Notes: a model not told the origin generated them from the letters alone. A stretch of DNA of 64,000 nucleotides from Verrucomicrobiota bacterium (GCA_016235585.1 JACRJY010000164.1:1-64000), one strand, 5' to 3'. Positions 3,691 through 49,700 are shown, counted from the first letter of the stretch. Made by a program: numbers and translations.

Positions 3691-6600
3691 CTACGGCAAC
3701 AAAACGGCTCGGTAGTAGCGGCGGGGGCTTCCGGGCGAGGTGATGTCGGTAAAGCTGAGGACACCGTGACCGCTGTTGATCGTGGTCAACTGCACCCAGC
3801 TTCCGGTGAGAAGCGTCGTCGAATAATCGATCCGGTATGCACGCCCCGGCTCCGCGCTCAAGGCTGCGGAGAATTGGCCGGCGGACACGCTCGACACGCT
3901 GGTCGCGGCGATGGTCTGTGTGATCGGGTCGCCGTTAAGCCGGGCAATGCGCCCGCGCAACGCGCTGTTGACGGTGGTGAAGTCACCCGAGAGCACAACC
4001 TTGAGATCGGAGAGCAGCAGCACCGTGTAGATGAGATTGTCCGCGCCCGAACCAGTTGCAAAAGTCGTGTCCAGCGTGCCGTCCGCAAGGAAACGCGCGA
4101 TACGGCCCGCCGGGGTTCCTGCCGCGCTGAACGATCCATTGACCGCAGCGGCCAGTGCATTTGTGCCGACAGATGCGTAGCTGAAACTGTTGGCGGAGGG
4201 AACTGCCGTGACGATGAAGGTCCCGTCGAAGCCCGCCGCATTGAAGGCAGGGTTGACGGTGTTCGTGTTGATGCCCGAGATGATCACACGAGAACCTGGC
4301 ACAAAGCTGTGCCCGCCCGTGGTGGTGAGCGTGGCGACATTGGCTGTGCGCTCACGGAAGGACACTGTGGCAAGCGAGGGCGGGGTGCCTGTGTCACCGT
4401 TGATGGAGGTGAACGCCCCACCGGCAAGAATCCGGCCATCTGCCTGCGCGACCACACTGAGCACGGTGTCATTCATCACCGGGAAGAACGTGGCGTCAAC
4501 CGAGCCATCGTGGTTGAGACGGGCCATGCGCGAGCGGGGCACGCCGTTGATGGTCCCGAACAGGCCGCCGATGACAATCTTGCCGTCAGTCTGGATGCTG
4601 ATGGAGGCGACGGTGCTGTTTGCGCCGGTGCCGGTGTTGAACGTCGAGTCGATCGTGCCGCCCGCGGTGAGTCGAACGATGCGGTTGACGGTCGTGCCGC
4701 TAAAGGTGGTGAAGGATCCGCCCACCAGCACCTTGCCGGCATTGGTGCCGGTTGTGTAGAGCGCGATGGCGTTGACGAAGCCGTTCGCGCCATTCGTGCC
4801 GGTGTTGAAAGTGGTGTCTAGCGAACCGCTGGAGTTCAAGCGAGCGATGCGGGTGCTGTTGGAAACGGAGCCGTTATAGCTCGTGAAGCCGCCGCCGATG
4901 AGCACCTTGCCGTCCGCCTGCAACGCCATTGCGTTCACAGAGCCATTCGCGCCGCTACCCACGGAGAAACTCGTGTCGAGCGAGCCATCCGCAAACAGGC
5001 GGGCCACGCGACTGCGGAGCGAACCGCCCACGGAGGTGAAATCGCCTCCAATCACGAACCGCCCGTCTGGCTGCAGAACCAGCGCGTTGATGTTGGTGTC
5101 TGCACTCAAACCGGTGTTAAAGGTAGTGTCCAGCGAGCCATCAAGGTTCAGCCGCGCGAGCTTGTTACGGCTGAGCCCGTTGAAGGTGGTGAACTGGCCC
5201 GCGGCGACCAACTGGCCGTTGGTCTGCTGCACGACGGCGAACACTGTCTTGTCAAATCCGACGACTGGATCGAAAGCGAAGTCCACGCCGCCCGCGCCGT
5301 CATTGTCCACAATGCTCAAGGTGGCATTGCTAAGGCCGAAGCTCGCGCCGCCTGTGGCGTTCGTCAGCCGCAGCGCGATGGTCTCGGTGGACTCCGTGCG
5401 CTGGTCATTGAAGATCGGAACGAGGAATGTCTTGGAACCGCTCTCGCCGTCAGCCCAACTGAGGGTCCCGCTGGCATCACCGTAGTCCAGCCCGCTGGTG
5501 GCGGTGCCGCCGGTGGAGGTGAGATACTGCACCGTGATAGGCCCGGCGCTTCCGCTGCTGCGCGTGACGGACACCACACCGTTGGAGCTGCTCTCGCCAA
5601 CCAGGAAGTTCGTGGCGGTGAAGCCGACGGAGCCGACGTTGTCCACGATGGTCAACACGGCGTTGCTGATGGTGAGGAAAGCGCCGCCGGTCGGATTCGA
5701 CAAGCGGAGGTTCACCGTTTCCGGCGACTCCGAGACGCTGTCGTTGACGATGGGCACCGTGAAAGTCCGGCTGGTCACACCGGGGGCAAAGACGAACACC
5801 GCGTTGGTGGCAATGTAATCCGTTCCGGCCAGCGCGCTGCCGTTGGTCGTGGCGAAAGCAGCGCTCACTGAGACATTCGTCACCCCTGCGCGGAGGACCG
5901 TGATGGTGGCTGTCCCAGCGCTCTCGGCCACAGTGTAGGCGTTGGTGCTGAACCCGATGCCGATGTCGTCATCCACGATGTTGGCGGTCGCCGTGTTGGT
6001 CAGACCAAGCTGGGTCGCCCCAGCCGGCAGCGGGTTGCTCAGGAACAGGCCGAACTGCTCGTCACCCTCGGGCAGCAAGTCGGCGACGATGGGAACTGTG
6101 AAACTAAGATTCGACTGGCCCGCTCCGAAGAACAGCGTTGCAGCAGAGACAGTGTAGTCCGCCGTGGCCGCCGCGGCGGACACTATCGCCAGCGGCACGG
6201 TGGAGTAGGCCACCGAGACCAGCCCGGTGTTCTGCCCGAAGCGCAGCACGGCGACGCTCAAGGATCCCGCCGCCTCGTTGACCGTGTAGCCCGATGCGCT
6301 GAAGCTGAAGGTGTTGTCGTTGTCCACGATGGTGAGTGTGGCGAAGCCATTCGTGCCAACGCCGGCGATGTTGGTCGGCGTGGCGCTTGCAAGTGACAGG
6401 TTCAGGAAGCGGTTCAACTGAACGGACTGGTTGTCGCTGATGGCGACCGTGAAGTTCGTGTTGGTGACGCCCGGCAGGAAGATGAGGGTGTTGGTAACGC
6501 CCACGTAGTCCACGCCGTTTGTCGCCGTGCCATCGCTGGTCGCATAGTTGACGGTGCCGGCAAGGTTCGTCACGCCATAGCGGATGACGGAGACGGTGGC

Positions 6601-9600
6601 GCTGGCGGCGTTCTCCAGCACGCTGAAGTTGGTCACTGCGAAGCTGAACTGCATGTCTTCGTCGGTGATCGTCACGGTGGTGTTGGTCAGCGCGCCAAGG
6701 AGCGCGCCCCCGGTGGGATTGCTCAGCACGAGGCTGAAAGACTCCTGCTGCTCAACCACCTGGTCGTTGACGATCTGCACGAGGAGGTTGCTGCTGGTCT
6801 GGCCCGGCACAAAGTTCAGCACCTGCGTCACGGGGACAAAGTCCAGCCCACCGGTGGCCGTGCCGGACACGCTTGCGATGTCCACGGACACCGCGCCGAC
6901 AATGCCTCCGATGCGACTCACGGTGACAGTGACGCTGCCGACAGCCTCGGCAACCGTGTAACTGTTGGTGTCGAACTGAAACGTGCCGAAGGCGTCATCA
7001 TCCACGATGGTCAGCAGGGCGTTGGTGAGGCCAAGTGTCGCGCCCCCGGAGGCGTTGAACAACGTCAGGGCCACGGTCTCACCGCCCTCGACGACCGTGT
7101 CATTTAGCAGGGGAACTTGGAATGTCTTGAACGACTCGCCGTCCGCCAGCGTGAGATTGCCGTTCGTGCTGCGGTAATCCACCCCGGCGGTGGCATTTCC
7201 CACGCCATCCACAGTGGCGAAGTTGAGGGTCACCGCGCCGGAACTGCCGTTCGTGCGCGACACCGTGATGACCGCGAATCCAGCATTCTCAAAGGCGCTG
7301 AAATTTGTGGCCGAGAAACCCAGAACGCCCACGCCGAAATCGTTGTCCACGATGCTCAACGTCGCATTGGAGACAACGCCCAAAGAACCAATGCCGATGG
7401 GACCGGCGTTGGTGAGGAACAAGGCCACGGTCTCACTGCCCTCGACGAGAGCGTCATCCACGATGGGCACGCTGAAGGTCCGAACCACCACTCCCGGCGA
7501 GAAGGTGAGCGTGCCGGACACATTGGTGTAATCGGCTAGAGCTGTGGCCGTGAGGGCGGTGGTGAAGAAGTCCACCGTCACCAGTTCGTTCGTGCCGCCG
7601 GAACGAGCCACCGTCACCAGCGCATTCGTGCCACTCTCTGCAAGGCTGAATGTGGTCGAGGCGAAGGCGATGGATGAATCATTCTCCGCTATCCGCAACA
7701 CAGCTGTTGGGGGGATGTCCAGGGAAGCCCGGCCTGTAGCGTTCGACAACGTGAGGAACACGGTGCGATCAGGGCGCACCGCTGTGTCATCAATCACTGG
7801 CACCAGGAAGGTCCGCAACGTCTCGCCCTGGCCGAAGAAAAGCGTGCCGCCCACAGCCACGAAATCCACGCCGTTGCTCGCCGTCCCACCGGCGATGACC
7901 GAGTAGTCCACGGAGACGGTGTTGCTCGTGCCACCGGTGCGTAGCACCGTGATCGTCGCGTTCGTCCCGGCCTCGCTCACAGTGAACAGCGGCGCACTAA
8001 ATACCAGCAGCCCGGACCCTGCGTTCTGGCCACCATGCAGCCGTGTGAAGCGGTTCTGAGCCACTCCATTGAAATTCGTGAACGCGCCACCGACGAGAAT
8101 CCGCCCGTCGCCCTGCACTGCCACAGCGGCCACAAGGTTATCCGCAGCAGTTCCGAAGTTGACGGTCGGATCCACCACGCCGTTGCCATCCAAGCGCACG
8201 ATGCGGCTGCGGCTGTAGCCGGAGAAGTTCACAAACGCGCCGCCCACCAGCACTTTGCCGTCAGCCTGGAGTGTCACGGACGAGACGAAGTCGTCAGGCC
8301 CGGAGCCAGGATTGAAGGTCGGATCCAACGATCCGTTAGCATTAAGGCGCATCAAGTTCGTCCTCGCCACCCCATTGGTGGTCGTGAACGCGCCGCCAAC
8401 AAGAATCTGGCCGTTGACCTGCACCGCGAGAGTGAAGACGGTGCCGTTCGTGATCGCTGCGCCCGGGGCGAAGGTCGGGTCCACGGTGCCGTCCCCGTTC
8501 AGCCGCGCGATGCGGTGGCTAGTCACTCCAGCCACGGAGCTGAAGTCACCGGCGATCAGGATTTTTCCGTCCGTCAACGCCGCCACTACCCGCACCTGCG
8601 CGTCGGGGCCAGTGCCCACATCAAACGTCGAGTCCAGCGTGCCGTCGAAATTGAGCCGGGCGACAAAGTTCCGGCTGACGCCATTGACTGCGGTGAACGT
8701 GCCGCCCAGGACGACACGTCCGTTGTTCTGTATGGCCACACCGTTGACAGCGTTGTTCGCGCCCGCGCCGGGGTCGAAGGTCGTGTCCGGCGAGCCGTCC
8801 ACGTTCAGCCGCACGATATTGGTGCGCGCAACGTTGCCGACCAGCGTGAAGAGGCCTCCGAGGACCACCTTGTTTGCATTCACGCCGTTCGTATAGACCC
8901 CGAGTGCGCGCACGGTTCCTAGTCCGTTCGTCCCGAAGGAGATGACGCCCGCGTCGAAACCGTTGTCGAGCGTTCCATCAACGTTGATGCGGGCCGCGCC
9001 CTGCCGAGGAGTGCCGTTGAATTGCGTGAAGTCACCGATGAGCAGCGCCTGGCTGTTGGTCGCGAGCAGGATGGAGGTGACCGTGCCGTTGGCGCCAGCC
9101 CCGATGATGAAGCCGGTGTCCACCGTGCCGGCGTTGTTCTCATTGTCCACGATGCGGACAGCGGCCTCGCTCAGCCCCAGCAGCGCGCCACCTGTCGTGC
9201 CGAAAAGGCGGACGCTGAAGGTGCGGTTGCCATCCTGCAGGGAGTTGTCAATCAGCGGCACGGAGATCGTCAGGTTCGTGACGCCGTCCGGGAAGGAGAG
9301 CACGCCGGTCGTATTCGTGTAATGCTGGCCGGCCACCACCACGCCGCTGCCCGGATACGCCACAGCGGAATCATTGGCGTTCGTAAAGGTCGCGTATTGC
9401 ACCGTGACCGGGCCGGTGAAGCCATTCGTGCGGACCACGGTCAGGAGTGCGTTGCTGGCGCTTTCCAGGGCGTTGAAAATCACGGAGGTGAAGCTCAGCG
9501 CGCCCGGTGCGGAGTCATCGTCCCGTATCGTCAACGTGGCCGTGCTGGGAATGTTCAGACTTGCGCCATTCGTCGGGTTCGACAGCGCAAGCCCCACAGT

Positions 9601-12600
9601 GCGGTCCCCGTCCACTATTGAGTTGTTGAAAAGCGGGATGGTGATGAGCCGCTCACTGGAATCGCCGCCGGCCCAGGTGAACGACCCGCTCACGGAAGCG
9701 TAATGCAGGCCCGCGACCGCCGTGCCTGCGCCGGTCGAGGCGAAGCTCACACCAATCGTTCCAGTGTTGCCGCCAATGCGCTGGACCCGGATCACCGCCG
9801 CACCGTCATTTTCGCGGTTCGTGTAAGTGGCGCTGCTGAAAACCAGGTTCCCGAAGATCAGAATGTCGTTGTTGATGATGTTCAGCACCGAGGAGTTCTG
9901 GAATCCAATGGTGGCCCCGCCCGTCGGGTTCAGCAGGTCGAGGAAGACGGACTCATTCGTCTCCTGCACCGAGTCGGGCAGAATTGGCACCGTGAAGGTC
10001 TTCGTTATCTCACCGTCTGCGAACGACAACGTTCCGATGCTCGGGCTGTAATCCTGATTCGCCCGGGCAGTCCCGTCTCCCGTGCGATAGTCCACCGAAA
10101 CCACGCCCGTGCTGCCGTTGGTGCGCGTGACGGTGATCTGGGCAAGGACGATGTCAGCGCTCTCGTTGGTCACGTAGGTGCTTTGAGTGAAATTGAACAC
10201 GCCCGGAGCAACGTCGTTGTCCACGATTGTCAGTATCGCCGACATCTGGCCCGGAACGGCGTTGCCTGTGAGGTTGGTGAGCACCAGCTCGATCGTCTCA
10301 TTGCCCTCCAGCAGGAGGTCGTCAATTATCGCCAAGCTGAACGTCCTGTTCGTCTCGCCAGGCCCAAACACGAGGGTGCCGCTCACCGGCACGAAGTCCA
10401 CATTGGGAGTGGCCGAACCATTGAGCGTGCTGGCGAACTGGACCGCCGCCGAACCAGTGGCGCCGCCGGTGCGGGTGACTGTGATGCTCGCGCTGCCACT
10501 GCCCACCACCTCGCTGACGTTGTAGGTGGCCGCGCTGAAGCCCAGCCGCCCGTCGTCATTCACGATGGTCAGCAGAGAGTTGGATTGGCCGCCCGAAGCC
10601 GCACCGGTGAAGCTGGTCAGCGTCAGGTTCACGAACCGGTCGGCGTTCACGGCCGCGTCATCCACGATGGAGATATTCGTCGATACAAATGTCTCACCCT
10701 GCGGAAAGTTGAGCGTGGCAAACACGTTCGTGTAGTGGACACCGTTCGTCGTGGCGCTGCCATCCGACGTGGTGAAGAACACCGAGGCCGCGCCCGTGGT
10801 CCCGCCGACCCGCCGGACCGTGATGACGCCCGCACCGCCGTTCTCCGCCACGGAGTAGTTCGCGGACGTGAACTCCAAGCTGCCCGGGCCAGCGATCACT
10901 CCGCCATGCAAGCGCACGAGATAGTTGCGCGGGGCGCTGTTGAACGTGGTGAAGCCGCCCGCGAGCACAATCCTGTCGTCGGCCTGCACGGAGATGGCGG
11001 CCACGAAGTTGTTCGCGCCAGCACCCACGTTGATGGTCGGGTCAGTCGTGCCGTCCGGATTCAGCCGCGTGAACCGGTTGCGACTCACTCCGTTGAAGCG
11101 GGTGAAGTCCCCGCCCAGCAGCATCTTCCCGTCGCCCTGCACCGTCATGTAGAACACCGCGTTGTCCGCGCCCGCTCCGCTGGTGTTGAAGCTCGTGTCC
11201 AGCAGGCCGGAGGCGTGGAGCCGGCCCACGCGTCCCACCGCCGTGCCGGCATAGTTCGTGAACGAGCCGGCCATCAGTATCTTTCCGTCCGTCTGCACGA
11301 GGAGCGCGCGGACAGTGCTGTTGGCACCGGTGCCCGCAAGGAAGCTGGCATCCACCGAGCCGTTCGCGTTCAGCCGCGCGATGTTGGTGAGAGCGATGCC
11401 GTTGACGCTCGTGAAATCACCGCCGATGAGCACCTTGCCGTCCGGCTGCACCGCCACCGCGAACACCGTGCCGTTCGCGCCCGTGCCGGGGTCGAACGTG
11501 TTGTCCAAAGTGCCGTTGGCATTCAGCCGCGCGATGAAATTGCGCCCGATGCCGTTGAACGTGCTGAACGCTCCGCCGATGACAACCTTGTCGTCAGTCT
11601 GCAAGGCCACCGCAAAAATCGCGTTGTCCGCGCCAGCGCCGGGATCAAAGGTGAGGTCCACTGAGCCACTCTGATTCAAGCGCGCGATGCGCGAACGGTT
11701 GGTGCCGCTCACCTGGGTGAAGAAGCCCGACACCAGAATGCGGCCCGTGTTCAGCCCCTGGCCATAGACCAACAGGGAACGGATGGAGCCATTGGCCCCG
11801 CCGGGGTTGAACACCGGATCCAGCGCGCCGTTGGCATCCAGTCGCGCAAGGCGGTTACGAGACACACCATTGACCGCCGTAAAATCACCGCCGACCAGCA
11901 GATTCCCATCAAGCTGCAAGGCCAGCGCATAGATGGCGCTGTCCGCGCCCGATGCCGTGTAGGTCGTGTCCGCAGAACCCGCCGTGACGTTCACCGACTC
12001 GTCATCAATTATCGAGAGGACCGCTGTGCTCGGGAAACCCAGCGTAGCGTTGCTCGGACTCGACAGCGCCAGGTTGATGGTGCGGGTTCCGTCAGCGAGT
12101 GCGTTGTCAAGGACCGTCACGCTGAAGTTGGTGCTCGTCTGGCCAGACACGAGCGTGAGCGTGCCGCCAGTGGTGACATAATTTGAACCCGCCAGAGCCG
12201 AGCCACCCGTTACCGTGTCAAAGCGGGCCGTGACCGTCCCGGCCACGCCGCCCAAACGCACGACCGTGACAATTGCGTTGGAGCCATTCTCGTTCACTGT
12301 GTAGATCGGGCGGCTGAAAGCCAGGCTGCCAAAGGCATCCTCATCCACGATCGTCAGCACGGCATTGGTCACTGTGCCGAGCGCACCAGCCACCGTCGGG
12401 TTGAACAGTGCCAGGCTTACCGTGCGGTTGCCGTCCACCACCACGTTGTCCACCAAGGCCACGGTGAACGTCTTCGTGGTTGTCTCCGCTGACGCCCAGA
12501 CAAGCGTGTTTGTCGCCGTTGCGAAATGCGCCGGTGCTGTCGCCGTCCCATTCGTCACCGCCACCTGCACGGTCAGCGCGCCCTGGCTGCCGCCGGAGCG

Positions 12601-15600
12601 CAACACGGAAATGAGCGCCGTCCCGGCATTCTCCGCGACGCTGTAACCGGCCTGCGAGAAGTTCAACCGGCCCGCCGCAAAGTCATTGTCAATGATCAGA
12701 ATGGCGGCGTTGGTCAGGCCCAGCGTGGAACCGCCGCGCGGGTTGAGCAACTGCACCGTGATCGTCTCATCCAGCTCAACAGCCGTGTCATCCACGATGG
12801 CCACGGTGAAGGTGTTCGTGAGCTGCCCTGAAGCGAAATTGATGGACCCGCTCGCCGCCGCAAAGTCCAGCCCCACTGATGCCGTGCTGCCGGAGCTTGC
12901 CGTCGTGTAATCACACGAGATAGGACCCGCGCTGCCATTGGTGCGGATGACCGTCACGACCGCCGCGCCGACATTTTCGTCCACTCGGAAGCTCGCTTGC
13001 GGGAAAGTGAGGATGCCGGGGTTGAAGTCATTGTCCACAACCGTCAGGGTCGCGCGTGAAATACCCAGAGCCACGCCTGTAGCGATGCGCTCACCTGCGA
13101 GGAACAACAGGCCCTGCGGCTTCGACAAGACCAAATCCACCAGTTCGTCACCCTCGATGGTGAAGTCCTCCGTGACCGCCACAAAAATATCCGTGCCCCC
13201 CCGCAACACATTGTTCGGACCGGTGGCACCATCAGCAGGTCGAGGCCCGGCCACTCCCCAAGTCGGCGAGCGCCGGGCTGCCACGTAGTCCTGACCCGCC
13301 GTGCCCGCTCCGGGACCGAACGGTGGATCCACTGTTCCAAAATTCACCAAAGCTGGGCCGATGGGCGGCTCGTTTGTATAGGCGGCGGTGAGCTGCGTGC
13401 CGTTGGTGCGTGAAACGGTGATGAACAAGCTCCCAGCATTCTCATCGAGTGTGTAGTTCGGTTGGCTGAAATCAATGTTACCGGCCCCGCGCGTGTCACC
13501 ACCTTTTACCCGTGTGAAATTGCTGCGTCTGCGGATGTCCGCACGAGGAAACTGGTCGGGCGGGGCGAGCTTGTCGGAACGATCGAAGCCCGCCATCAGC
13601 CTCCGCGCGGTTCCATTGGTGCTGGAGAATCCAACAGCCACCGAATTCGCAGCATCCCTGTTGCCGCCACCACCCTGCTGGAAGGAACCGCCAATGATGA
13701 ACTCCTCTGTGATGTTCGTTATGGCGAAATTGGTCCCAAGGCCCAGTGAGACAGTGGCCGTGTTGGTCGCCGGTTGGATTGCAATGGTGGCGACAAAATT
13801 TCGCGGCAAGGTGTTGGACAGGTTAATCAAGCCAGCGAACTGGTTGAAAGCGGAGTCCATAAACTTCGTGTCCAATGTCCCGTTGCTGAGAAGGCGGGCC
13901 AACCCGAGACGGCGGGTGCTGTTGAAGTCCGTGAACTGGCCACCGAGAACCGCCTGTCCGTTCGCCGCCATGGCCATGGCAAACACAGTGTCATTGAATC
14001 CGCTGCCCGGGCTGAATGTCGTGTCCAACGAACCATCCGGGTTCAACCGCGCAACCTTGTTCCGACGGCGCAGATCGAAGTTGTTGAACTCACCAGCCAG
14101 AATGACCTTCTCGACACCCGATGCCGCAGTCGTAACGCTCGCGCTGTAGTCCCAGAGCGTGCCGAGAATGCCGTTGCCCTCGTTGACAACGATGCGAAGC
14201 ACAGTGTTGGTGCCAGGGCCGAACGGGACAGTGATGCTCGTGTAGCCATTCGTCAGGCCGGAATCAAAAATACGGTTCCCGGCCAGTTGATTCGTTCCGT
14301 AATAGACCCGGATGGTGTCCGCAACGTCGTAGAATTGATACTGCAGCGTGATAGTTCCCGACGTGGCCCCGCCGGTGTTCACGTCGAAGATATCCTCCGC
14401 CGGGCCTCCCGATGCCGTGCGGTCCACCACGATGGACCCAGCGCCGAGCTGTTCCACACCGAGCGCATAGACGGTGCCGTCCGCCCCCGCGCTGGGGTTG
14501 AAAGTCAGATCCAATGCGCCTGTCGCAGTCAGCCGGGCGATGCGGTTACGCGGCACTCCGTTGAAAGTGGTGAAATCTCCACCCACCACCACCTTGCCAT
14601 CTTTCTGCACACGAATGGCGTAGATGGGGCCGTTGGCACCCGAGCCGGGATTGAAGGCTGTGTCCAGGCCACCATCCACATTGAGTCGCGCGATGCGGTT
14701 CCGGTTCGTGCCGTTGAAGCTGGTGAAGTCGCCCACAATGAGCACACGCCCGTTGAAAACACCGCTCGTGTAGTTATGCAGGGCACGGACGGGCGCGTTG
14801 GCCCCGGTGCCGGGGTTGAAAGTGGCGTCCAAGACGCCATTGGTGTCCACCCGCGCGATGAAGTTCCGCGCAACCCCGTTGTAGGAGGAGAACCCACCGC
14901 CAAAGACAATCTTCCCGTTGTTCGTGTTCGCCACGAAGTTGGTCCCGGTAGGCACGCCATTGGTGTCGAAGAGGGTCACCGAATTGGTCAGCGCCGGATA
15001 GACGCCGATCGCCGCCACGAAGTCGTTCGCTCCAACTCCAGGATTGAACGAGGTGTCCAGCGAACCATCCAGATTCATGCGTGCGATACGGCTGCGTGAG
15101 AACGTGTTGATCGCAGTGAAATCGCCGCCGACAATGGCTTTCCCATCCTCCTGCACAGCAGCGGCAAAGACGGTGTTGTTCGCGCCGGGCACCGAGTTTT
15201 GGGGCGGCACAGTGCGGTCATCGAAATCTGGATTGTAATTCCGGTCGAAGATGCCCGGCGCATCATCGTTGTCCAGAATGGTCACTGTGGCTTCTTCAAG
15301 AATGGCACCGTTGACGACGACTCGCATTACGAAGTCCTCGTTGAATTCCGCGATCAGGTCGTCATAAATCGGCACGAACACCACAACATGGCCGCTGTTT
15401 GGAATGGTCACCGTCTGCGTTCGTCCATCAAAATCTCCGGTTACTCCCACAGCACCCCCGGGCGTGCCAGCGGAAGCCCAATCCGACCCAGCTTGGTGCG
15501 CCAAAGTATTGTCGCCATTAAATGCAAAGGAAAATGACTGGCTGGACCAAACATTTGTGCCGTCGTTGGGATCGCTGAAAACGATGTTCGGCGACGACGG

Positions 15601-18600
15601 AGGGCCGAAGAGTGAGAAACGCGCGACGCCAATATCCTCGCGCACGCGATACACCTCTCGAGACCAGTGATAGGTGGTAGGCGTCAAAGCCCGTTTGATA
15701 AGCACCTGAGATGTTGACAACGCTCCAAGCGAGGCACCACCGGTTGCATTTGAGAGCACCACATCGAACGAGTTGAAGCTAAAAACATTGCCTGTGACAT
15801 TCGTGATCACGCCAAAGTTCGTAAAGACGATGGGCACAATGAAGCTCTTGGCCATCTCGTGCTCCTTGAAGGTCAATGTGCCGCTGGTGGCCACATAGTC
15901 GAATCCCGCCAGAGCGTTGCCGTTCAGGAAGAAAAGGTTTGTGATGCCAAAGAGGTTGGTGCGATCCCTTGTGGTGAAATCGACGCTGACAACACCATCC
16001 GCTCCACCGCTGCGGGTCACCGTGACAAGTGCCCCGGGGATGTTGTGATGACGATTGCTGTAGATCAACCCCGTTGGCGGAATGGACGTGAAGAGACCAA
16101 TTACGGGGGAGATCACTGTGTTGTCCTCGAAGTAATGCGTGTTCGTGGTCTCAGTGTTTTTCACGAGATAATTGGTGGCCGTAAAGCTGAACGTGCCAGC
16201 GTTGTAATCGTCGTCCAAGACGATCAACGTCGCACTTGCCAACCCAATGGAAGCCCCGCCTGTCGGCGTGCTCAGAGTGAGATTCACCACCTCGTTGGTC
16301 TCAAAGAGGGGATCATCCAAAACGGGGATGTTAAACGTCACGTTCGTCACCGCGTCGGGGAAGACCAGTGTTCCGCTGGTGGTCGTGTAATCAGAACCCT
16401 GCTTGGCCGTCCCGTCCGAAGTGCTGAAGTTCACCGTGACCGTTCCCTGGCTGCCGTTGGTGCGGATCACCGTGATGGCTGCGGAGCCGGCATTCTCCAC
16501 CACAGAGTAGGTCGCGGAGCTGAAGCCGATGATGCCGTTGCTGATCTCATCATCACGAATGAGCAGCGTCGCGTTCGTGAGGCCCAGCACCGCTCCGTTC
16601 CCGGGATTCGACAGGGTCAGCAACACTGATTCGTCACCTTCCGACAGCGCGTCGTTGATCACGGCCACGCTGAAAGTCTTGCTCGTCTGGCCATCGGAGA
16701 AGTTGAGGAAGCCGTTCGTGAGAACATAGTCCAAGCCCGCGAGGGCTGAGCCGTTGGCCGAGCCAAACTGGACGGACACCGGGCCGGTGCTGCCGTTGGT
16801 GCGGACCACGGTCACCACCGCATTGCCCACGTTTTCGAGGACCACAAACTGGTTCGTGGAGAATCCCAGCGCGCCCGGCGAGAAATCATCATCCACAATG
16901 GTCAGCACCGCAGTCGAGCGCCCAAGCGAGGCCGCGCCCACTGGATTCAGCAATGTCAGCACCACCGTTTCATTGCCTTCCACCGCACTGTCGGGCAGGA
17001 CCGGCACGTCGAAGCTCTTCGGGGCCACATCGCCAGCCGCCCACGCCAACTGGTTGCTGACGCTGGTGAAATCCACGCCGGCCACCGCCGAGCCTCCCGT
17101 TGTGTTGTAGGAGACGGAAACCGCCCCAGCCCCGCCACCGTTGCGCACGACTGTGATGGTCGCGTTCGAGGAGCTTTCGTTGACCGAGAAAGTCGAGGCG
17201 GAGAACTCAATCAAACTGTCGTTGTCCACGATGGTGATCGTGGCGGGGTTGACCGCGCCCACCGAAGCCTGCGGTGAGGGATTAAGCAGAGTAAGGATCA
17301 CGGTCTTGTTCGCGTTGGCCACAAAGTTGTCCAGAAGGCCGACAAGGATGTTCGTGGTGGCCTGACCGTTGGCAAAAGTCAGCGTGGTGGTCTGCCCGAC
17401 GTAGTCCACTCCATTCGTGGCAGTGCCATCACTGGTGGCGAACTGCACAGTAGCAGTGCCAGTCAGTCCGACGCGGCGAACCACGGAGACGGTTGTGTTG
17501 GCCGCGTTCTCATCCGCCAAAAAGTTCGACTGGGTGAACTCGAAACTGCCACCGCTCGATCCGTTGGCTCCAGCGTTGATGCGGGCCACCCCGTTGCGGG
17601 TCTGTCCGTCCACCGCAGTGAACGCGCCGCCGATGACAAATTTCGCGTCCCACGGCTGAATGGCGAGCGCCGAGACAAAGTTGTTGGCCCCGGTGCCGAA
17701 GTTGATGGTGGTGTCCACCGAGCCGTCAGGATTGAGACGGCTGATGCGATTGGCTGGAAGTCCGTTGAAAGTGGTGAAGCCGCCGACCAGCACCAACTTG
17801 CCGTCAGGCTGCACTGTCACAGCATTCACGTAGTCATCAAACCCAGTGCCCGTGTCGAACGCCACGTCCAGTGCACCGGCGGTGACGCCCACGCCAACAA
17901 GCCGGACGATGCGGTTTCGCGCGACGCCGTTGAAGTTGGTGAACCCGCCACCCACGATGACGCGGCCGGCAGAATCCACCGCAAGCGCGCTCACAAACGC
18001 GCCCGCTCCTGTCCCCGGATTGAAAGCCGTGTCGAGTGTGCCGTCCGCATTGAGCCGCGCGATGCGGGTGCGGGCGACTCCGTTGAACGTCGTGAAGTCG
18101 CCGCCCACCAGCACCTGCCCGTTGGTCTGCAACGCGAGGGCCCGCACCGCGCCATCCGCCCCGACGCTGGTGTTGAAGGAGGAGTCCACAGTTCCATCCG
18201 TATTGAGCCGGGCGACGAAGTTGCGTGCCGTGCCGTTGATCGTGGTGAAGAGGCCGCCCACCAGCACGCGGCCATCAGGCTGCTGTGCCATGACGAGCAC
18301 GGTGTTGTTCGCGCCGATGGATGTGTCGAAGCCACCATCCAGCGAGCCATTGACGTTGAGCCGTGCCAGCCGACCGCGGTTGGTGCCATTGAAGTTGGTA
18401 AAGAAGCCGCCGACGATCACGCGCCCGTCCGGCTGGACCAAAACGGCGTTGATGGTGTCACTCGCTCCTGTCCCGATGTTGAAGCCAAGGTCCAACGAAC
18501 CATCGAGATTGAGCCGGGCCAGTCGGCTGACGTTCGCACCGTTGAGGACTGTGAAGTTGCCGCCCACCACCGACTTGCCCAGCAAGTTTGGCAGCGACAG

Positions 18601-30250: not shown

Positions 30251-30261
30251 GGGTGAAGCGC

Positions 30262-37700: not shown

Positions 37701-40700
37701 TTTGCAAGGTAATGACCCGCACGGATGCGTTGGCCCCCACGCCCGACGGATTGAATGCGGTGTCCACCGAGCCATCGGTGTTGAGCCGGATCAGGTTGCC
37801 CTTGTTCGTGCCGTTGAAGCTCGTGAAGTCGCCGCCGACCAGCACCTTGCCATCCGTCTGGATTGCCACCGCCTGCACCGCGCTGCTGGCCCCTGTGCCG
37901 ATGTCGAACGTCGTGTCCACCGAGCCATCGCTGTTGAGCCGCGCCACGAAGTTGCGCGCGATCCCGTTGAACGTCGCGAACGTGCCGCCGATGATCATCC
38001 GCCCGTTGAATGTGCCGTTGGTGTAGAGCGCGATGCTGTTGAGCGGGTTGTCCGCGCCCGCGCCGGGGTTGAACGAGGAGTCAATCGCGCCGTCCGTGTT
38101 CAGCCGCACGATGTAGTTGCGGTTCGTCCCGTTCACCGTGGTGAACGCCCCGCCCACCATCAGCCGGCCGTCCAACTGCAGCGCCAGCGCGCGGATGGTG
38201 CCGTTGAAGCCCGAGCCGCTCGCCAGGAAGCTCGTGTCCAGCGCGCCGCTGGCACTGAGCCGCGCCAGGCGGCCCCGGGCGACGCTGTTGAACTGCGTGA
38301 AGTCGCCACCGATGATGACGCTCCCGTTCGTCTGCAACGCCATCGCCTGCACAAAGTTGTTCGCCCCGCTGCCCGGCGAGAAGAGCGTGTCAATCGAGCC
38401 AGCGGGGATGTTCTGCGACTCGTCGTCCAGGATCGTCAACACCGCCGTCGAGCCACCCAGCCGCAGGACGCTGGTGCGGCCGCCACCGTTCGCCGTGGTG
38501 AAGTTGCCGACCACCACGAGGTTGCCGTCCGGTTGCAGCACCTGTCCGAAGGCCGAGCCACCTGCCAGCGTCACGGCGCTCACGGAGCTGTCCAGCGAGC
38601 CGTCCGGGTTCAGCCGGGCGAAGCCCGCCCGGCTCGTGCCGTTCACCGTGGCGAAATCACCCACCACTGTGATCTTGTTCAAGTTCCCACCGGCCGTGGG
38701 GTCCACCACCAGCGAGCGGACAATGCCGTTGCCGCCCGCCACGCCCGAGAATCCACTGAACGTCGAGGTGTCCAGCGAGCCGTCCGCGTTCAGGCGCGCG
38801 AGCCGGTTGATGGCCGTGCCGTTGACGTTGGTGAACGCACCGCCGATGAGGACCCGGCCGCTGGTCTCGACAGCCACGGAATTGACCGCGCCGCCCGCGA
38901 CGCCCGATCCGAAGCCGGTGAAGGTGGCTGTGTCCGTCACACCGACGGCGGAGAGGCGGGCCACGCCGTTGCGCGCCTGGCTGCCGGACGATGTGAACGC
39001 GCCGCCGATCATGATCGTCCCGAGTGCCTCCACAGCGATGCTGTTCACGGTGCCGCCGGTCACGTTGGGATCATTGAACCCGGCGGCCGGCGCGCCGCGC
39101 GTGCCGCCTGAGTTGTCGAGCAGGGCCACACGCGCGAACAGGCCACCGTTGATGGTCGTGAAATCACCGCCCACCAAGAACTTGCCCGCCGCATTGACCT
39201 GGATGGTGTTCACAGCGCCGTTGAAGCCGCCTGTGCTAAGATTGCCAGAGAAAGTGGCGTCCACCGCACCCGCCGTGGTGAGCATCGCGATATAGGCTGT
39301 GTTTGCCGCGCCCGCCACGTTGGTGAAAGTGCCGCCGATGACCACGTTCCCGCTGGCATCCACGAACACCGTGTTGACCGCGCCGCCTGCCACGCCCGTT
39401 CCGGGATTAAACGTCGTGTCCAGCGAGCCGTCCGTGTTCAACCGCGCGATGCCGTTGCGGGAGACTCCGCTGACCGCAGTGAAGGAGCCGGCGATGAGCA
39501 GCTTGCCATCGCTCTGCCGCGCCGTGGCGTTAATCGCGCCCGTGATCTCCGAGCCGCTGGCCAGCGTGCCATCCACCGTGCCAGCGCTGGTAAGCCGGGC
39601 GAAGCCGTTCAACGTCACGCCGTTGACTGCCGTGAAGCTGCCGCCCATGAACACACGCCCGTTGCCGTCCAGCACCATCGCCAAGACGATTGCGTCCGGG
39701 CCGGAGCCGGGGTTGAACGTGCTGTCCACCGCGCCCGAGCTGGTGAGGCGTGCGGCCCGCGTCGTATTCACCGAGCCGTTGACCGCCGTGAAGTCGCCGG
39801 CGATCAAGTAGCGGCCGCTGCCGTCGCGAGCCAGCAAGCGCACCGTCGCGCCAGCACCGGAGCCAAGCGACGTGGAGAAGGATGTATCCAGCGCCGCCGT
39901 GCTCGAGTTGAGCCGCGCCAGTCGCACGCTTGTGGAGCCGTTATAAGTGGTGAAATCCCCGGCCACCACAAGGCTGGCCGACTCAATCACAATGCCATAC
40001 ACCCCGCCGTTGGGGCCGGTGCTGATGCCACCGGAGAAGGATGTGTCCAGTAAGCCGACGGTGGTGAGTTTGACCAGTCGCGGGGTGCCGGGTTGGCTGT
40101 TCATGCCGGTGAAATCGCCGCCCACATAAAGGGTCGTCCCGCTGATTGCAATCGCGCGAACAGTATTGTCGAAACCGCCAGTGAGGGTGTTGCCGATGTT
40201 GGCGTTGAAGGTCGCCGTGTTCAGCGCGTAGGTGCCGCTATCCAGCCGCGCGAGCCGTCGGACGTTCGCCGTGCCGTTGAAGGAGGTGAAATCACCACCG
40301 AGAAAGACATTTCCACTCGCATCAATCGCCAGCACTTGCACAGCCGCGTTCGGGCCATCATTCACGGCCAGGGAAAACGCGGCGTTGACCCCGCCGTCGG
40401 CGGCGTTCAGCAGCGCTAGGTTGGTGCTGCCCGTCCCGTTCACGTTCGTGAAACTTCCGCCGATCAGCACGTTGCCGAGGCCGTCAATCGCCACGGCGTT
40501 GATTGTCCCGCCAGTAGTCAAGCTCAGGCCGATGCCCGTGCTGAAGCTGTTGTCCACGGAGCCATCGGGATTAAGTCGGGCGACGTTCGTCCGTGCCGTG
40601 CCGTGGACACTGGTGAAGTCGCCGGCGATGATGTATTTGCCGGCGTGCGTGCCGCTGGTGTAGGCGGCCACCGCCCGGACAATACCATTGGCTCCAAGCC

Positions 40701-43700
40701 GGGCCGGCAGGAAGGTGCCGTCCAAGGTCCCGAAGGCGAGCGCCGCATTGCCCACGCCCGAAAGTGCGAGGTTCACGGTCTTGTTCGCGTTGGCCAGCCC
40801 ATTGTCAATGACCGGCACGGTGAAGTTGGTGCTGGTCACGCCTGGATCCAACTGGCTCGATCCGGTGGTATGTGTGTAATGTGTCCCCGCCAGCGCGCTT
40901 CCGGGCGAGGTCGCGAAGCTGAATGGCACCGTGCCACCGCGCCCGCCTGTGCGCACCACTGTGATCACAGCGGAGCCGCCGTTCTCCGCCACCGCGTATG
41001 CAGACTGGCTGAAACTCACCGTCCCGTAGGCGTCATCCTCCAGTATCGTCACCATCGCGCTGGTGATGTTGCCCGCCGCCGCCCCGGTGATGCCTGAGAG
41101 CGCCACATTGAAGGTGCGCGTGCCAACGGGGTTCACTAGCAAGTCGTCCACAATCGTCGTCGTCAGCGTGCGGCTCGTGGCGTCGTTGTTCGCCCAGGAC
41201 AACGCGGTGCTGAAAGCGACGTAGTGCGTGGGGCTGATCGCCGTGCCGTCCGTCGTCGCCAGCGTCGCGGCAGCGGAGCCAACTGAACCGCCGGTGCGGT
41301 TGACCACGATCTGCACCGTGACGGCGCTCTCATTCACCGTGTAAGCGGCGGCGCTCAAGGTGATGCGGCCCGCCGCAAGATCGTCGTCCACGATGGTGAG
41401 CGTGGCCGCGCCGCCGGATAGGGTCGCGCCACCGGTGGGGTTGGACAGAAAGAGGTTCACCGTCTCGTCGGACTCGACGACTGCATCATTGCTGATCGTG
41501 ACAGTGAATGATTTGTTCGTCTCACCCGCCGCAAAACTCAACGTGCCGCTGGCCAGTTGGAAATCGGCACCCGCCGTGGCGATGCCCGCACCGGTCGTGG
41601 TATTCGTCGCCACAAAGTCCACGGTCACCGCGCCCGCGCTGCCATTGGTGCGGAACACATTGATGGTGGCGGTGCCCACGCTCTCCAAGGCGGTGAAGTT
41701 CGTTGTGCTAAAAGTGAACTGCCCGCGCAGAAAGTCATCATCCACGATGGTCAGCACGGCGGTGCGCTGGAATCCCAGCGCGGGGTTGTTCGCCACCATC
41801 AGTTGGCCACCAAGTTCAAAGCTGCCGCTGCCCGACTGTGGACCGGTGCCTACCCCCGTCGCGAAGAAGCTGTCCACCGCTCCGGAGTTCTCATCCAACC
41901 GCAGGACGCGGCTGGTGTTCTCGGTGCCATTGAACGAACCGAAGAGGCCGACGACGATGAGCCGACCGTTGCCGTCCCTCACGATGGTGCGCACCGTATT
42001 GTCAGCGCCGCCGCCTGCCAAGTTGAACGTCGTGTCCAGCGCGCCGCTGGACAGCAGCTTGGCGATGCGGCCCACGCTTACATTGTTGACCGCCGTGAAG
42101 TCGCCGCCAATGAACACGTTGTTGAATGGGTCCAAGGCGATGGTGCGCACGGAGCCGTTCGGGCCGATGCCCGTGTTGAACGTGGTGTCCAGCACACCCG
42201 AGGTGTTGAGGCGCGCGAGGCGCGTGGTGTTCGGCTGCGAATTCAGATCCGTGAAATCGCCGCCCACCAAGAGGCTGGAGCCGCTGGCGGCGAGCGCCCG
42301 CACCGTGGAGTTGAAGCCGCCGCCGATGGTCGTGTTGAAACGGGTGTTGAACACCAGCGTGTCCGCGTCCAGCCGCGCCAACCGGCGGGCCACCGTGCCG
42401 TTGTAGGTCGTGAAATCGCCGCCCAGATAGATGTTGCCGTTGGTGTCCAAGGCCAACGCATTGACCGCCGTCCCGCCCGGGGCCGGGCCGGTGGAGATCG
42501 TGCCACTAAACGTGACATCCACCACGCCGGCGGCGACCGTCAGGCGGGTGATACGGACGGTGTTGCCTTGAGCCATGAACGAGGTGAAGCCACCACCGAT
42601 GATCACGTTGCCAGACCGGTCAATGGCCACCGCGTTCACGGTCCCGCCAGCCGCCCCACCCGTGTAGGCTGAGGAAGGGCTGTTGTTGAAGGTCGTGTCC
42701 ACCGCGCCCGCCGCAGTGAGGCGCGCAACATTGGTGATGTTGACCCCGTTGATCTGGGTGAAGTCGCCCACCACCACGTATTTGTTCCCATGCACAGGAA
42801 CGAACGTGCCGTCGGAACTGCCAGCCGAAAAGCGCGCCACCCGCCCCAAGGTCACAGTGCCCGCCGCAAAACCCACGGTCTGGAAATCGCCGCCTATCAC
42901 CGCCCGACCGCTGGCATCAATCGCCAACGCCCTCACCGGTGCTGCCGGACCGGTGCCACCATGAACGCTCGTGGCGGTGCCCGTCGTGCTGACCTGCGCC
43001 GCCCGAACGGTGTTGAGGACGCCGTTGACCGAGGTGAAATCACCGCCATACACATGCGCCGCACCAGTCCATGCCACGGCTCGCACGGTGTCGTTCGGGC
43101 CGGTGCCCAAGTTGGAGGCGAAGATCGTGTTCAAGGCCGCCGTGCTGGCGGAGAGCCGCGCCAGCCGAACGCTGCCTGCGCCGTTGTAGAAGGTGAAACT
43201 TCCGCCGATGACCAGATTGGCTGCGCTCTCCACAGAGATGGCGAAGACGGTGCCGTCCGGACCGGAGGTTATGCCCGAGGCGAAGGTTGTGTCCAAGACG
43301 CCGCCAGTCGACAGCTTTGCGATGCGCACCGTGCCCGGCTGGCTGTTCATGCTGGTGAAGTCGCCGCCCGCATACAGCGTGGTGGAGTTGATCGCCAGCG
43401 CCCGGACCGTATTGTTGAACCCGCCGGTGCCGGAGTTCCCGATGTTAACATTGAAGGCATTGTCCAGCGCGTAGGTGTTCGCATTGAGCTTCGCCACCCG
43501 GCGCACATTCGGCGTGCCGTTGAACGAAGTGAAATCGCCGCCGAGGTAGATATTACCCGCCGCGTCCACTGCCATGGAGTGGACCGGCAGGTTCGGGCCA
43601 CCGGCGCTCATGGCGGTGGCGAACGTCGCATCCACCGAGCCATCAACCGCATTGAGCAGGACCAGTCGGGCCGTGTTCGGCTGCCCGTTGAACGAGGTGA

Positions 43701-46700
43701 AGTTACCACCCACCAGCACCCGCCCTCCCGGCAGGACGAGCGCGGCGTTGACAGTGCCACCCAGAGGGCCGCTGCCCACTGTGAACGAGGTGTCCAGCGT
43801 GCCATCGGCGTTGAGCCGCGCGACGTTCGTCACGCTGACGCCATGCACCGTGGTGAAATCACCAGCAATCAGCAACTTCGCTCCAAGTCCAGATGGCGCG
43901 TAGGTCGTGTCCCGCAGGCCCGCGATGGGGCCGCTCACCAGCCGGGTGAACCGGTTGACCGCAGTGCCGTTGTAGCTGATGAAGTCTCCCGCGATAAAGG
44001 CCCGGTCGTTGGCGTCCATCACCACGGCGCGCACCACGTTGTTGGCACCGCTGTTGACCCCGACGCCGCTGTAGAATGTGGTGTCCAGCGAACCATTGGC
44101 CTTCAGCCGGGCCACCCGGTTCGGGCCTTGCGTGATGGTAATCGTTCCGCCCGCGGGCGTCGCCGCCGGAATGGACTCGTAGGCCGCGAAGGAACCTAGC
44201 GGCGTGGCGGTGAGGAGCACATCGGGACCTGCGTTGTTGTATTCGAACCGCGTCGTAGTCGGAACCGCCGTCACCGTGACCGGCGTCTGCACGGAGCCAA
44301 ACGTGGCGTCGCTGATGCTGATATAGACCGTGCTGCCCACTGACAACCCGTGCGGTGTCGAGGTGGTCTGCGTCGCCACGTTGGAGCTTCGCTCCTTGAA
44401 GGTGATCACCGCCGCGGCAGCACTCCGGGCCGTGCCGCCCACCACCTGGGCGGAGCCAACGCTCGCGGCGGAGTTGTAGCTGATCGTGTTGGCGGTGACC
44501 GCCGTGATCAAGTAGGTGCCGTCTAGCAGGAAATCCACCCCGGACACCACGATGGTGTTGCCGGCCAGCAAGGTGTGGCCGCCGTCCGTCGTTAACGTTG
44601 CGGTCACGCCGTCCGCAAACTTGTTGGTCACCGAGAAGCCCGCCGCGCGCGCGTAAGTAAGCGTGGTGAAACTCGGCGCGGTTTCCACGGTGAACAGGCC
44701 ACCGTTGAACACCGCCACGCCGCCCGCCGGGTCCACGTTGTTCACTAGGAATGAACTACCGGGCACCAGATTGTGCGGAGCCGAGGTGGTGATCGTCGCG
44801 TTCGTGATCGTGGCCAATTGCTTCTGTGACACGTTGACGGCAGCCCCCGAGCCGGTGAAGTCGCCGCCCAGCAGGAACTGCCCGCTGCTGTCCCGCGCCA
44901 CCGAGCGCACGATGGTGTTCAAGCCCGCGCCGAGGTTTGCACCGAACGTCGGATCCACGGTGCCGCTGGCCGCCACGCGGGCCACGCGCACGCTCGCCGC
45001 TCCGTCGGCCGTGGTGAAATCGCCCGCGATGATGATGTCCGTGCCGTCCAGCACGAGCGAGTTGATGGTGGCAGTGGCACCTGCCACGCCGTTGAAGACC
45101 CGGCTGAACTCCGCATCGAATGTGCCCAGGCTGCTGACCCGCGCCAGTTGATTCGCCCCCGCCGTGAGCGAGGCCGTGCCCGTGGCGGCGACCGTCGCGA
45201 TCAAACGGTTGACCGTGCCCGCGGTCGCCACGGCAGGGTTCACAGTCGGTGGCGTCCCGGCGGCGGTATAGACCAACGAACTGCCACCGGTGCCGACCCC
45301 GAGCACGTAAGTGCCGTCGAAGTTCGCGTCGCCAATACTCACCACCACGGTCTGCCCGACGAGGAAGGTGTGCGCCACCGACGTGGTCAAGGTCGCCGTG
45401 TTCCCGACCATCTGCTTCATCGTGATGGTGGATGAGAATGTGCGCGGGTAAGTGAAGGTCGTGGCGTCGAGCACCGAGATGATCGCCGTGGTGTTGAAGT
45501 CAGTGTCAACGCCCGCAATCGTCACCTGGTGTGTGCTTGAGAAGCCGTGGGGAACCGTAGTCACGATGGTCGCGATATTATTCGCCAGCCCTTTGGTCGC
45601 CACGCCTGCGGAGAAGCTCGTGCCCGTGTAGGAGCCGCCCAGCACAATCTGGCCGGAGCCGTTGATGGTGAGGGCGTTCACCGTGGCGCTCAGGCCCGTG
45701 CCGAGGTTTGCGGCAAACACCGCATCCATCGCGCCGGACGGCTTGAGCCGGGCGAACCGGTTGGCACCACCGCCGAAAGAGACCGTGGCGCTCACGCCGG
45801 CGGCGGTCGTGGGCACCGCATTCAGCGCCGCCACGTTGTTCGGCGCGCTGGTCGCGGTGGGGCCGCCCGTTTGCAGCGTGCCGGTGCCGGTTACGGCAGT
45901 CGAACCGACGACCGTTGTCGCCGGGTCGGTGACCCGGAAGGTGGTTGGATTGACCACAGTCACAGTGAGCGTCTGGCCGTTGATCGCCGCATCAACGGTC
46001 GTGAAGCTCACCGTGTCGCCCGTGCGCAGCTTGTGTTCGGCGGCGGTCGTCAGCGTGAAGTTCACCGCGTCGCTCACCTTGTTGATGATCGAGACCGAGT
46101 AGGTCTTCGCGTAGGTGAAGGAGTTCGCGTTCACCACCGTGATTGTCGCGCCGGTCGTGTCGAAGGCCGGGTCGCCGAGGTTCACATCCACCGTGCTGCC
46201 AATCGGGAAGCCGTGGTTGGCGGCGGTGAGCGTGACGAGGTTGCCACCGCTGAACGCCTTGGTTGTGACCGCCGCAGGGGAGAACATACGCTTGGCGGTG
46301 CCCGTCGCGGCGACGGTCGGCACTAGCCGGAAAATTGTGCCCGCCTGCGCGATCGCACTGCGCGTCTCCAGTGTGCCGGTGCCACCGACCACCGGCGTCG
46401 AAGCCACGACCGTCGTGAGCGGGTCCGCGACCCGGAACGTGTCGGCGTCCACGATCAGAGTGACAGTGCGGGTCGGAGGGCTGTTAATCGCGCCGTCCAC
46501 GCCGAGGATGGTGACCGTATCCCCTAGCTTGAGACCGTGGCTGCCCGTGGTGTCGAGGGTGAAGCTCGTTCCGTCGCTAGCCTTGTTGATGATGCTGACG
46601 GTGTGGGTGCGCGGGTAGCTCACCGACGTGGGCGTGGTCCCGCTCACCGTAAAGTTGCCGTCGAGGGACGGGTCGCCCGTGGCCACCGTGATGCCGTCGC

Positions 46701-49700
46701 CGAGAGTGAAGCTGTGCGTTCCGTCGGTCAGGAGGGTGGTGGTGTTCGGCCCGGTGGTGAAAGACTGGGAGGTGACGGGCGACTGGAGTGTGCGCGTGTA
46801 GGTGAACGAAGTCGTGGTCGGCACGGTCACGACCCGATACGTTCCGTTGAACACCGTGTCCACGCCCGAGATTTGCACCACGTCATTGATCGCGAACCCA
46901 TGCGGGGCCGCCGTCACCAAGGTGGCCGCGTTATTCGTCAACCCCTTCGTGCCACCAGCGAGCGTGGCCTGCACGGCGCGGGTGTAGGTGATTGTATTCG
47001 CAGTGGTGGCCGTCGCCGTGAACGGGCCGTCAAATAGGCCCGCAGCGAAACCGGAGTTGGCGACCGTGACGCTGCTGCCGGTCACGAAGCCATGCGGGGC
47101 GGCCGTGGTCAGCGTCGCCGCGTTGATGGTGTCCAGCCTGACGCTGCTGACACTGGAAGCGAAGCCCAGCCCGGCAAAGTCGCCGCCGAGGATGACGCCG
47201 CCCGCGCCGTCCACCGCCACGGCCCGCACCGCCGCATTCGCGCCCGCGCTCAACTCGGCCGCGAAGGCTGCGTCCACCGCACCGTTGGCCGCCGCGAGCC
47301 GTGCGACCCGGACAGTGTTTGGAGCACCATTGAAGCTGGTGAAGTCGCCACCGATAATGACGTTTCCGGAGGAATCCAACGCCACGGCATTGACCGTGCC
47401 GCCCACCGCGCCGGTGCCGGAATTGAAGCTGACATCCAGCGTGCCGTCGGTGTGGAGCCGGGCGACGTTCATGACCGTGGTTCCGTTGACCTGCCCGAAG
47501 CTGCCCACGATGACGGTCTTCCCCAAGTGGATGCCGCTGGCATAAGTCACGGCAGCGTTGATGGTGTTGTTCGCACCAAAGCCGGTTGCGGGGAACACGC
47601 CGACCGACCGCACTGTGTTGTTGGCCAGCGGGAGGTTCGGATAGGCGGCCATCGCGCGGACCGTGTTGTTGGCCCCGTAGCCGAGGTTGAAGCCGTTGGT
47701 GTTGAAGTAGCCACCAGCGTTGATCTGCGCGAGGCGGACGGAGCTGGACGCGCGGCTGTAGGAACCGAACTCGCCGCCGACAAGAATGTTTCCGCTGGCG
47801 TCCACCAGCGTGCTGTTGACATCCACCGAGACCGTGCGCGGGCCAAGTCCGTAGGTGGAAAGGGTTAGGTTGATGGTCTCGTTCGGCTCGACCACCGTGT
47901 CGGGCGTGATGTTGACGAGGACGGTGGAGCGAAACGGTGCGGTTGGTAGGATGCCGGACTCGCTTGTCCGAAGCTCGCGGACGTTCACAAACGGCCCCAA
48001 ATAGTTCACCGTGTTGGTCACCCCGGTATAGTCAGAGCCGGCGGTTGCGGAACCGGCGGTGGTCCGCACCAGCACGCTTGCGGGCGCGAGGTCTGCGCCG
48101 AGTCCGGCCGCGTTCGCGCGCTGCACGCGGATGGAGGCGGTGCCGCCGCTCTCGCTGACGGAGTAGGTGGGCAGCTCAAACTCAATGTTGCCAGGGCCGG
48201 CCGTCACCCCGCCCAGGACGCGCGCGAGGTTTTGGCGCGGCTTTGCCTGGGTCCAGCGCATACCGTTGGCGACACCGGCATTGGGGCTGTTGTCATTGGC
48301 TGAGAGCGGGATGAACGGGTTGGGGAACGGGACGCTTGTCGTGGTGCCGTTGTTGGGCGAGGGGGCGGCGTTCCGAGGGAACGCAGTGCGAGAGAAAGGC
48401 GCGCCGAAGCCGGTGAAGCTGCCGCCGACCACGACATTGTTATCCGCCTGCACCGCAAGGCTGCTGAGAAAACTCGTCGAGTTGGTCGGGCCGGCGTTCC
48501 AGTTCAGAAGCGTGTCCATGAAGGTGGTGTCCAGCACGCCATTGGTGAAGAGGCGCAGCAGGTTCTTGCGCGCCGAACCGTCGTAGGTGGTGAAGGATCC
48601 CACGACATAGAACTGGCTGTTGGTGGCGAAGGCAATCGCGGTGACAGTGTTGTTCGCGCCGCTGCCGGGATCGAACGTCGTGTCCAGCGCCCCCGTGGTG
48701 CCCACGCGCGCGAGGCGCACGCGACTGATCTGGTTGTAGGTCGTGAAGTCGCCACCGAAGACAGCTTTGTCATCGGCCTGCATGAGCAGCGCGCGCACTG
48801 AGTTGTCCGCGCCCGTGCCGGGATCGAACGTGGGGTCAATCAGGCCGTTCACCAGCGCGCGGGCCAGGCGGTTGCGGGCGGTGCCATCGTAGCTGGTGAA
48901 ATCTCCGCCGAAGAGCACACGCCCTGCGCTGTCCACACCCACGGCATAGACGGTGTTGTTCGGCCCGATGCCGGAGGCGAAGGTGACATCCAAGGTGCCG
49001 TTGGTGTTCAGGCGGGCGAGGTTCGTAATGCCCGTGCCGTTAAATACCGTGAACGAGCCGCCCACGATCACCTTGCCGTCCGGCTGGAAGGCCACTGCGC
49101 GCACGGGACCGTTGAAACCCGCCCCGGGATCAAAGGTCACATCCAGCGAGCCATCGGAATTCAGGCGGGCGATGCGGTTGCGGCTCACGCCGTTGTAGGC
49201 GGAAAAGCCACCACCGATGATGATTTTGTTCAAATTCGCGCCCGCGTTGGTCTGGACCACCACCGCGCCGATGAAGTTGTCCGCACCCTGGCCGATGTTG
49301 AACGTGCTGTCGAAGGAGCCGTCCGTGGCAACGCGCGCGAGGCGGTTGGCGGGCGAGGTGTTGTAATCCGTGAAATCTCCAACCACCACCGCGAGTCCCG
49401 AGGACTGAAGCGCGACGCCATTGACGGTGTTGTTCGCGCCTGGCAGCGAATTGACGGGGGGGACCGTGATAAAATTGGAGTCAAGGTTCCAGTTGCGGTC
49501 CAGCGCGCCGGCGGGCTGGTCATCGTCCACGATGGTCACGCTGCACACACCGGACATGATGTAGTTAAGTGCCGGGCCAGTCGGATGGCTTGCGCCGATG
49601 AAAACAGTCGGCAAAGAGCCGGAATTTCGCGTAATTGCGCCCGAACTGGCGAGTGTGGCGCGGCTGACCGCGATGAAAATGTCCTTGTTGAACTCCGACA

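Follow-up and report, generated by a model that had tools for sequence, protein, structure and literature searches.

Repeat arrays in multiples of seven, read as strings of predicted seven-bladed propellers, in two giant DUF5122/delta-60 proteins of a Verrucomicrobiota bacterium

The delta-60 repeat family (TIGR02608) has a period of about 57-61 amino acids (aa). Pfam already describes the DUF5122 repeat (PF17164) as a beta-propeller repeat. In one paper a contact-based model of DUF5122 agreed with a WD40-template model, with a template modelling score (TM) of 0.82 (PMC8078820). A velcro closure pattern has been described for propellers including PkwA, and designed fragments taken from seven-bladed parents closed with anywhere from six to nine blades (PMC6805158). 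This means that a natural exactness of seven would not be trivial. Within the accessible portions of the literature our search found no ring size or array arithmetic stated for DUF5122. It found nothing on the 'delta-60 repeat', TIGR02608, or Calx-beta giants in Verrucomicrobia. Here we consider a 64,000-nucleotide stretch of DNA from a Verrucomicrobiota bacterium (GCA_016235585.1 JACRJY010000164.1:1-64000; the window). Two neighbouring minus-strand genes, P1 (3691-29997) and P2 (30262-50181), together fill 3691-50181, and in both of them Calx-beta domain arrays alternate with DUF5122/delta-60 blocks. All features given below with window coordinates lie on the minus strand. We argue from structure models that each seven of these repeats very probably form one closed seven-bladed beta-propeller.

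It is worth considering how the repeats were counted. The initial annotation reported 119 copies of the motif R-x-R-[IV]-A-R-L-x-x-[DN]-G. Taken literally the motif has 16 matches, even with a slightly relaxed regular expression. This is too few for a blade counter, so it was dropped in favour of a blade hidden Markov model (HMM) built from the window repeats and anchored on their 'GGxF' core. The repeat is what had been counted, not the strict motif, and the repeat number was right. The blade HMM gives 7, 7, 7, 14, 7, 7, 7 and 7 blades in blocks A to H of P1 and 7, 21, 14, 7 and 7 in blocks A to E of P2, or 119 = 17 x 7. PF17164 is independent of the window-built model and gives 6, 7, 7, 14, 6, 7, 7, 8 and 7, 15, 14, 7, 7, which are exact multiples of seven in 9 of the 13 blocks. 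Its deviations can be traced. P1 blocks A (26671-27978) and E (13486-15243), with 6 each, have a degenerate seventh blade. P1 block H (3871-5313), with 8, has an insert splitting blade 6, and the split blade is scored twice. P2 block B (41785-47847), with 15, has three blades split by inserted domains as well as other weak blades. The split blades are 4, 5 and 7, and their second halves were found (for example 'NRFARLKPSGAMDAVF' near residue 1488 and 'NRVARLKANGSLDTTF' near 2037).

Every one of the 13 blocks matches PF17164 above its curated cut-off (207-471 bits against 27; E-values 3.4e-62 or better), and the ten blocks scanned with TIGR02608 are also above its cut-off (107-272 bits against 76.5). 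The best WD40 (PF00400) match stays below its own (25.3 bits against 27). TIGR02608 finds 5-7 blades per single ring. Being an undercounter it was not used for counting, and a test that looks for HMM counts other than multiples of seven would misfire with it. Window repeats typically have a period of 51 aa, outside the TIGR02608 range. It must be noted that the blocks are partly copies of each other, so the chance of their agreement modulo seven is not an independent test. The survey of relatives described below is.

The structure of a single block was predicted for P1 block F (10891-12003; AlphaFold2 model m229b3820702e, covering 10864-12018). For the modelling, and as a search profile, we aligned 91 seven-blade stretches taken from the window and from relatives. 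The model has a mean predicted local distance difference test (pLDDT) of 94.6 and a predicted template modelling score (pTM) of 0.92. It has 21 strands of at least 3 residues, ordered as 7 three-stranded blades with short fourth strands. Foldseek aligns it over its full length to WD40 rings, with TM by target of 0.72-0.73 and a root-mean-square deviation (rmsd) of 4-5 A over 361-377 columns. One example is 5xjc_T (TM 0.73 by target, rmsd 4.0 A over 372 columns) and another is 3odt, both of which we take to be seven-bladed. The NHL rings 1q7f and 5ex7, presumably six-bladed, fit less well (TM about 0.59). The profile of the 91 rings retrieves solved propellers such as PkwA (5yzv), unlike a single-sequence search, which found no relative.

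Most blocks have an orphan 'GSLDxTF' strand ahead of blade 1 and a last blade that lacks it. P2 block B does not show this pattern. The model of P1 block F has short N-terminal bridges in its DSSP assignment. We propose that a blade would consist of strands a, b and c plus a short strand d ('GSLDxTF'), and that the orphan N-terminal strand d would take the place missing from the last blade, as in velcro closure. With this register, 14, 21 or 28 blades in an unbroken array can fold into 2, 3 or 4 successive rings. Only complete rings would close, which on this proposal accounts for block sizes in multiples of seven. Blades and rings would be gained by duplication, and incomplete rings would be lost.

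The model of a 14-blade array agrees with two successive rings. P2 block C (38440-40737; 14 blades) and its host Calx-beta domain were modelled with AlphaFold2 from 32 sequences (model m1c0dbd25d33d, covering 38413-41037), giving a pLDDT of 78.0 and a pTM of 0.52. The sole internal stretch with a pLDDT under 50 is residues 486-496, exactly at the junction of blades 7 and 8. The best matches in the PDB are double seven-bladed proteins, namely BT4663, BT4673, PorZ, AIP1 and GH74 enzymes. The title of the AIP1 entry, 1nr0, names two seven-bladed domains.

P2 blocks B and C each lie within a Calx-beta domain, judged with a Calx-beta model of 109 positions. The host of block C has positions 2-94 ahead of the array (40738-41016) and its last strand behind it (about 38419-38457), which places the insertion near position 94. 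The host of block B has positions 1-100 ahead of the array in two pieces (47815-48186) and positions 91-109 behind it, with the last strand past the array at 41734-41790. Pfam's Calx-beta model detects only positions 8-63 before block B, and the trailing pieces of the two hosts are short and weak by themselves (0.8 and 3.4 bits). Insertion into the loop of a folded domain requires that the ends of the insert be adjacent, which fits a closed ring.

The rule of seven extends beyond the window. Survey loci came from one ring search, from single-blade family searches, and from one search with a P2 segment. Single-blade queries do not favour seven. The strict set consists of DUF5122 arrays from outside the window that are contiguous and not truncated, and arrays with inserts were kept separate. 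By automated count 92 of its 108 arrays are multiples of seven, where about one in seven would be expected. After dereplication at 55% identity it is 69 of 82. Among the other moduli from 4 to 11, none accounts for more than 7 of the 108. Arrays broken by a single gap of about two periods fall outside the strict count; most of them come to 14 or 28, one blade being degenerate. Delta-60 repeats proper give 7 or 14 in 27 of 27 strict arrays; these come from genomes labelled Chlorobiaceae, Bacteroidota, Gammaproteobacteria and Chloroflexi, and two of the loci (L033 and L036) are shared with the DUF5122 survey. The surveyed relatives carry labels from about ten phyla, although these labels derive from metagenome bins and are doubtful in some cases. 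The count therefore repeats in other delta-60 proteins. The view that copy number is variable in this family is true of the total in a protein but not of the ring size.

Two candidate exceptions were rejected. L052, counted as 4+4 by HMM, is not a DUF5122 member but a 6+6 NHL-like repeat with a period of about 41 and six blades. The '4-102-4' block of L137 might be read as 8 or 9 blades, but one match lies inside an inserted domain and the count is 7. Some relatives deserve mention in their own right. L148 (G169:C27) is an open frame of 9,840 aa that carries at least four delta-60 rings; its genome is labelled Chlorobiaceae. In L086 (G000:C86) about 300 aa at residues ~340-600, with repeats like 'VAVGENSAIWASTNGQNW', interrupt blade 6 of a DUF5122 ring. 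By eye this insert is Asp-box/BNR-like, and it may be a second propeller set inside the first.

Several points weigh against closed seven-bladed rings. There are 16 arrays among the 108 that miss a multiple of seven by automatic count, mostly by being one short (6 or 20). About half of the non-multiple arrays were inspected and most gain a degenerate or split blade to reach 7, 14 or 21, while one of them is the NHL-like L052, but such rescue by eye could be biased. The top Foldseek matches of the P2 block C model have a high overall rmsd and the relative orientation of its rings is not resolved; its pTM is 0.52 and its Calx-beta part did not fold. We found no experimental structure for the DUF5122/delta-60 family, and ring closure was judged by strand count, confidence and superposition rather than by a measured distance between the N- and C-terminus. 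One can imagine a scenario where the structures are open solenoids, or rings of a different size such as a single ring of 14 blades, and the sevens arise by coincidence from the ancestry of the blocks. The lack of a linker between rings in the 14- and 21-blade arrays would suit this. It requires that AlphaFold2 and Foldseek both mislead in pointing to seven-bladed rings, that arrays sit in the loop of another domain without neighbouring ends, and that relatives labelled from many phyla share the blade number anyway. We can hardly credit this. The models, the break at blades 7 and 8, the velcro pattern at most block ends and the Calx-beta insertions all support the initial annotation in taking each block as one or more closed seven-bladed propellers, and the AlphaFold check it proposed for a single block came out in favour of a ring. 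A different scenario accepts the rings but not selection on blade number. The sevens would then be merely inherited, one ancestral seven-blade ring having been copied whole. Rings in the window do keep their register, since rotation 0 is the best in 33 of 91 ring pairs where 13 are expected. Blade similarity within P2 block B is higher at lags 7 and 14 (2.28 and 2.12) than at other lags (about 1.6-1.9). Together these imply that whole rings were duplicated in the window. However, inheritance does not readily explain the rings of L037, L109, L110 and L036, where adjacent blades are 76-84% identical and yet each ring has exactly seven. Such identity implies that blades were copied or converted singly, and the L109 ring carries the same insertion in six of its seven blades. 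L109 and L110 are related and in one genome, so these young rings amount to about three independent cases. Nor does it readily explain the arrays of 21-28 blades in L042, L093, L100, L102, L105 and L106, which have no lag-7 excess and still reach multiples of seven after one missed blade is added. Inheritance alone is thus quite improbable. Whole-ring duplication and single-blade amplification both operate, and we infer that the latter favours selection for closure. The initial annotation suggested that selection removes incomplete rings. The young rings of exactly seven favour this, but it is drawn from counts, and within the window whole-ring duplication contributes too.

The 21-blade array of P2 block B needs a separate argument. 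Its breaks had been placed at 1+7+7+6, and comparison of the blades bears this out. Matched against ring 1 of P2 block C it fits best at a one-blade offset (mean score 2.64, against 1.8-2.0 at other offsets). By descent it therefore reads 7 | 1-7 | 1-7 | 1-6, and the total is still 21. Blade 1 has the character of position 7, with no orphan velcro strand ahead of it. Either any seven consecutive blades close whatever their descent, or blade 1 closes with blades 16-21. In the second case rings 2-8 and 9-15 would have been inserted into a third ring, a variant that is compatible with our best explanation. The offset and the character of blade 1 argue for it. If any seven consecutive blades could close, the register of descent need not equal the physical ring, and the nesting would not follow. 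We regard the nested arrangement as a tentative possibility. The full combination is rather unlikely to hold in every part: a ring size of seven invariant across the DUF5122/delta-60 superfamily, enforced by selection even on fresh rings, together with a permuted array in which two rings lie inside a third. Among the long arrays of the survey, L093, L100, L102, L105 and L106 are related 28-blade proteins, each with one degenerate blade in the same position; in those inspected it falls between counted blades 15 and 16.

Of the remaining blocks, P1 blocks B (24676-25848), C (21751-22908) and G (8026-9138) have 7 blades each, as do P2 blocks A (48190-49512), D (37285-38412) and E (34435-35547). 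P1 block D (17521-20088) has 14 blades in two rings without a linker, and an inserted domain of about 105 aa (18781-19095) lies between the first two strands of its blade 7. P1 block E has an insert of about the same length (14158-14469) between the first two strands of blade 5. These two inserts are alike, L137 has a similar one, and neither insert has a Pfam match. The sampled insert in P2 block B is E1_FCCH-like. E1_FCCH-like 'HGF' domains occur within its blades at 45766-47136, and sequence similar to them occurs in P1 block H near residues 8611-8695.

P1 has 8,768 aa, with 63 blades in 8 propeller blocks (9 rings), and P2 has 6,639 aa, with 56 blades in 5 blocks (8 rings). These lengths rest on an inferred start, the Met preceding a signal-like peptide in each protein. 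P2 lies directly upstream of P1, the downstream gene, and a scan for promoter-like consensus gave no match. Calx-beta (PF03160) matches above its curated cut-off, with 1143.9 bits across 20 stretches of a single part of P1. Near its C-terminus P2 has Calx-beta, CARDB, P-domain and DUF11 modules. A similar short C-terminal module with '(R)(R)(F/Y)YRA' is found in P2 (30262-30400), P1 (3691-3830), and relatives such as L115; it is perhaps a sorting signal. Among the neighbours, those with a confident annotation are ordinary (PolyA polymerase head, lactate racemase N-terminal domain, PSCyt2/PSD1). In other collections, the window's nearest relatives carry the labels Limisphaerales and other Verrucomicrobiota.

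The propeller fold of DUF5122, which the initial annotation also assumed, had already been proposed. What is added here is a fixed ring size, counted and general, arrays of whole rings, insertion into Calx-beta, and the one-blade permutation. The family is widespread and functionally uncharacterised, and its number of copies in a protein had seemed arbitrary. It now has a definite ring size, by which repeat counts can be converted to ring counts. The young rings of exactly seven make it testable how strictly blade number holds while propellers grow from single blades. The signal-like N-termini, the Calx-beta arrays and the size, by analogy to large Calx-beta adhesins, suggest that P1 and P2 may be secreted or surface stalks or adhesins, stiffened by Ca2+ through Calx-beta, that display many propeller faces for binding.

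Three known systems invite comparison. The window blocks that were scanned match the delta-60 model, and the rule of seven also holds for its stricter members in other phyla, but the window period is near 51 aa rather than 57-60 and TIGR02608 misses many window blades. WD40 and double propellers (PkwA, AIP1, BT4663, PorZ, GH74) have the same fold by structure comparison and tandem seven-bladed rings. They share only 9-16% sequence identity with the window's propellers, and P1 and P2 differ in having nine and eight rings per chain with Calx-beta arrays between them. Receptors of the LRP2/megalin type are likewise long extracellular chains in which many propellers are spaced by arrays of small Ca2+-binding modules, but they are eukaryotic, their rings are six-bladed YWTD rings, and their modules are LDL-A and EGF.

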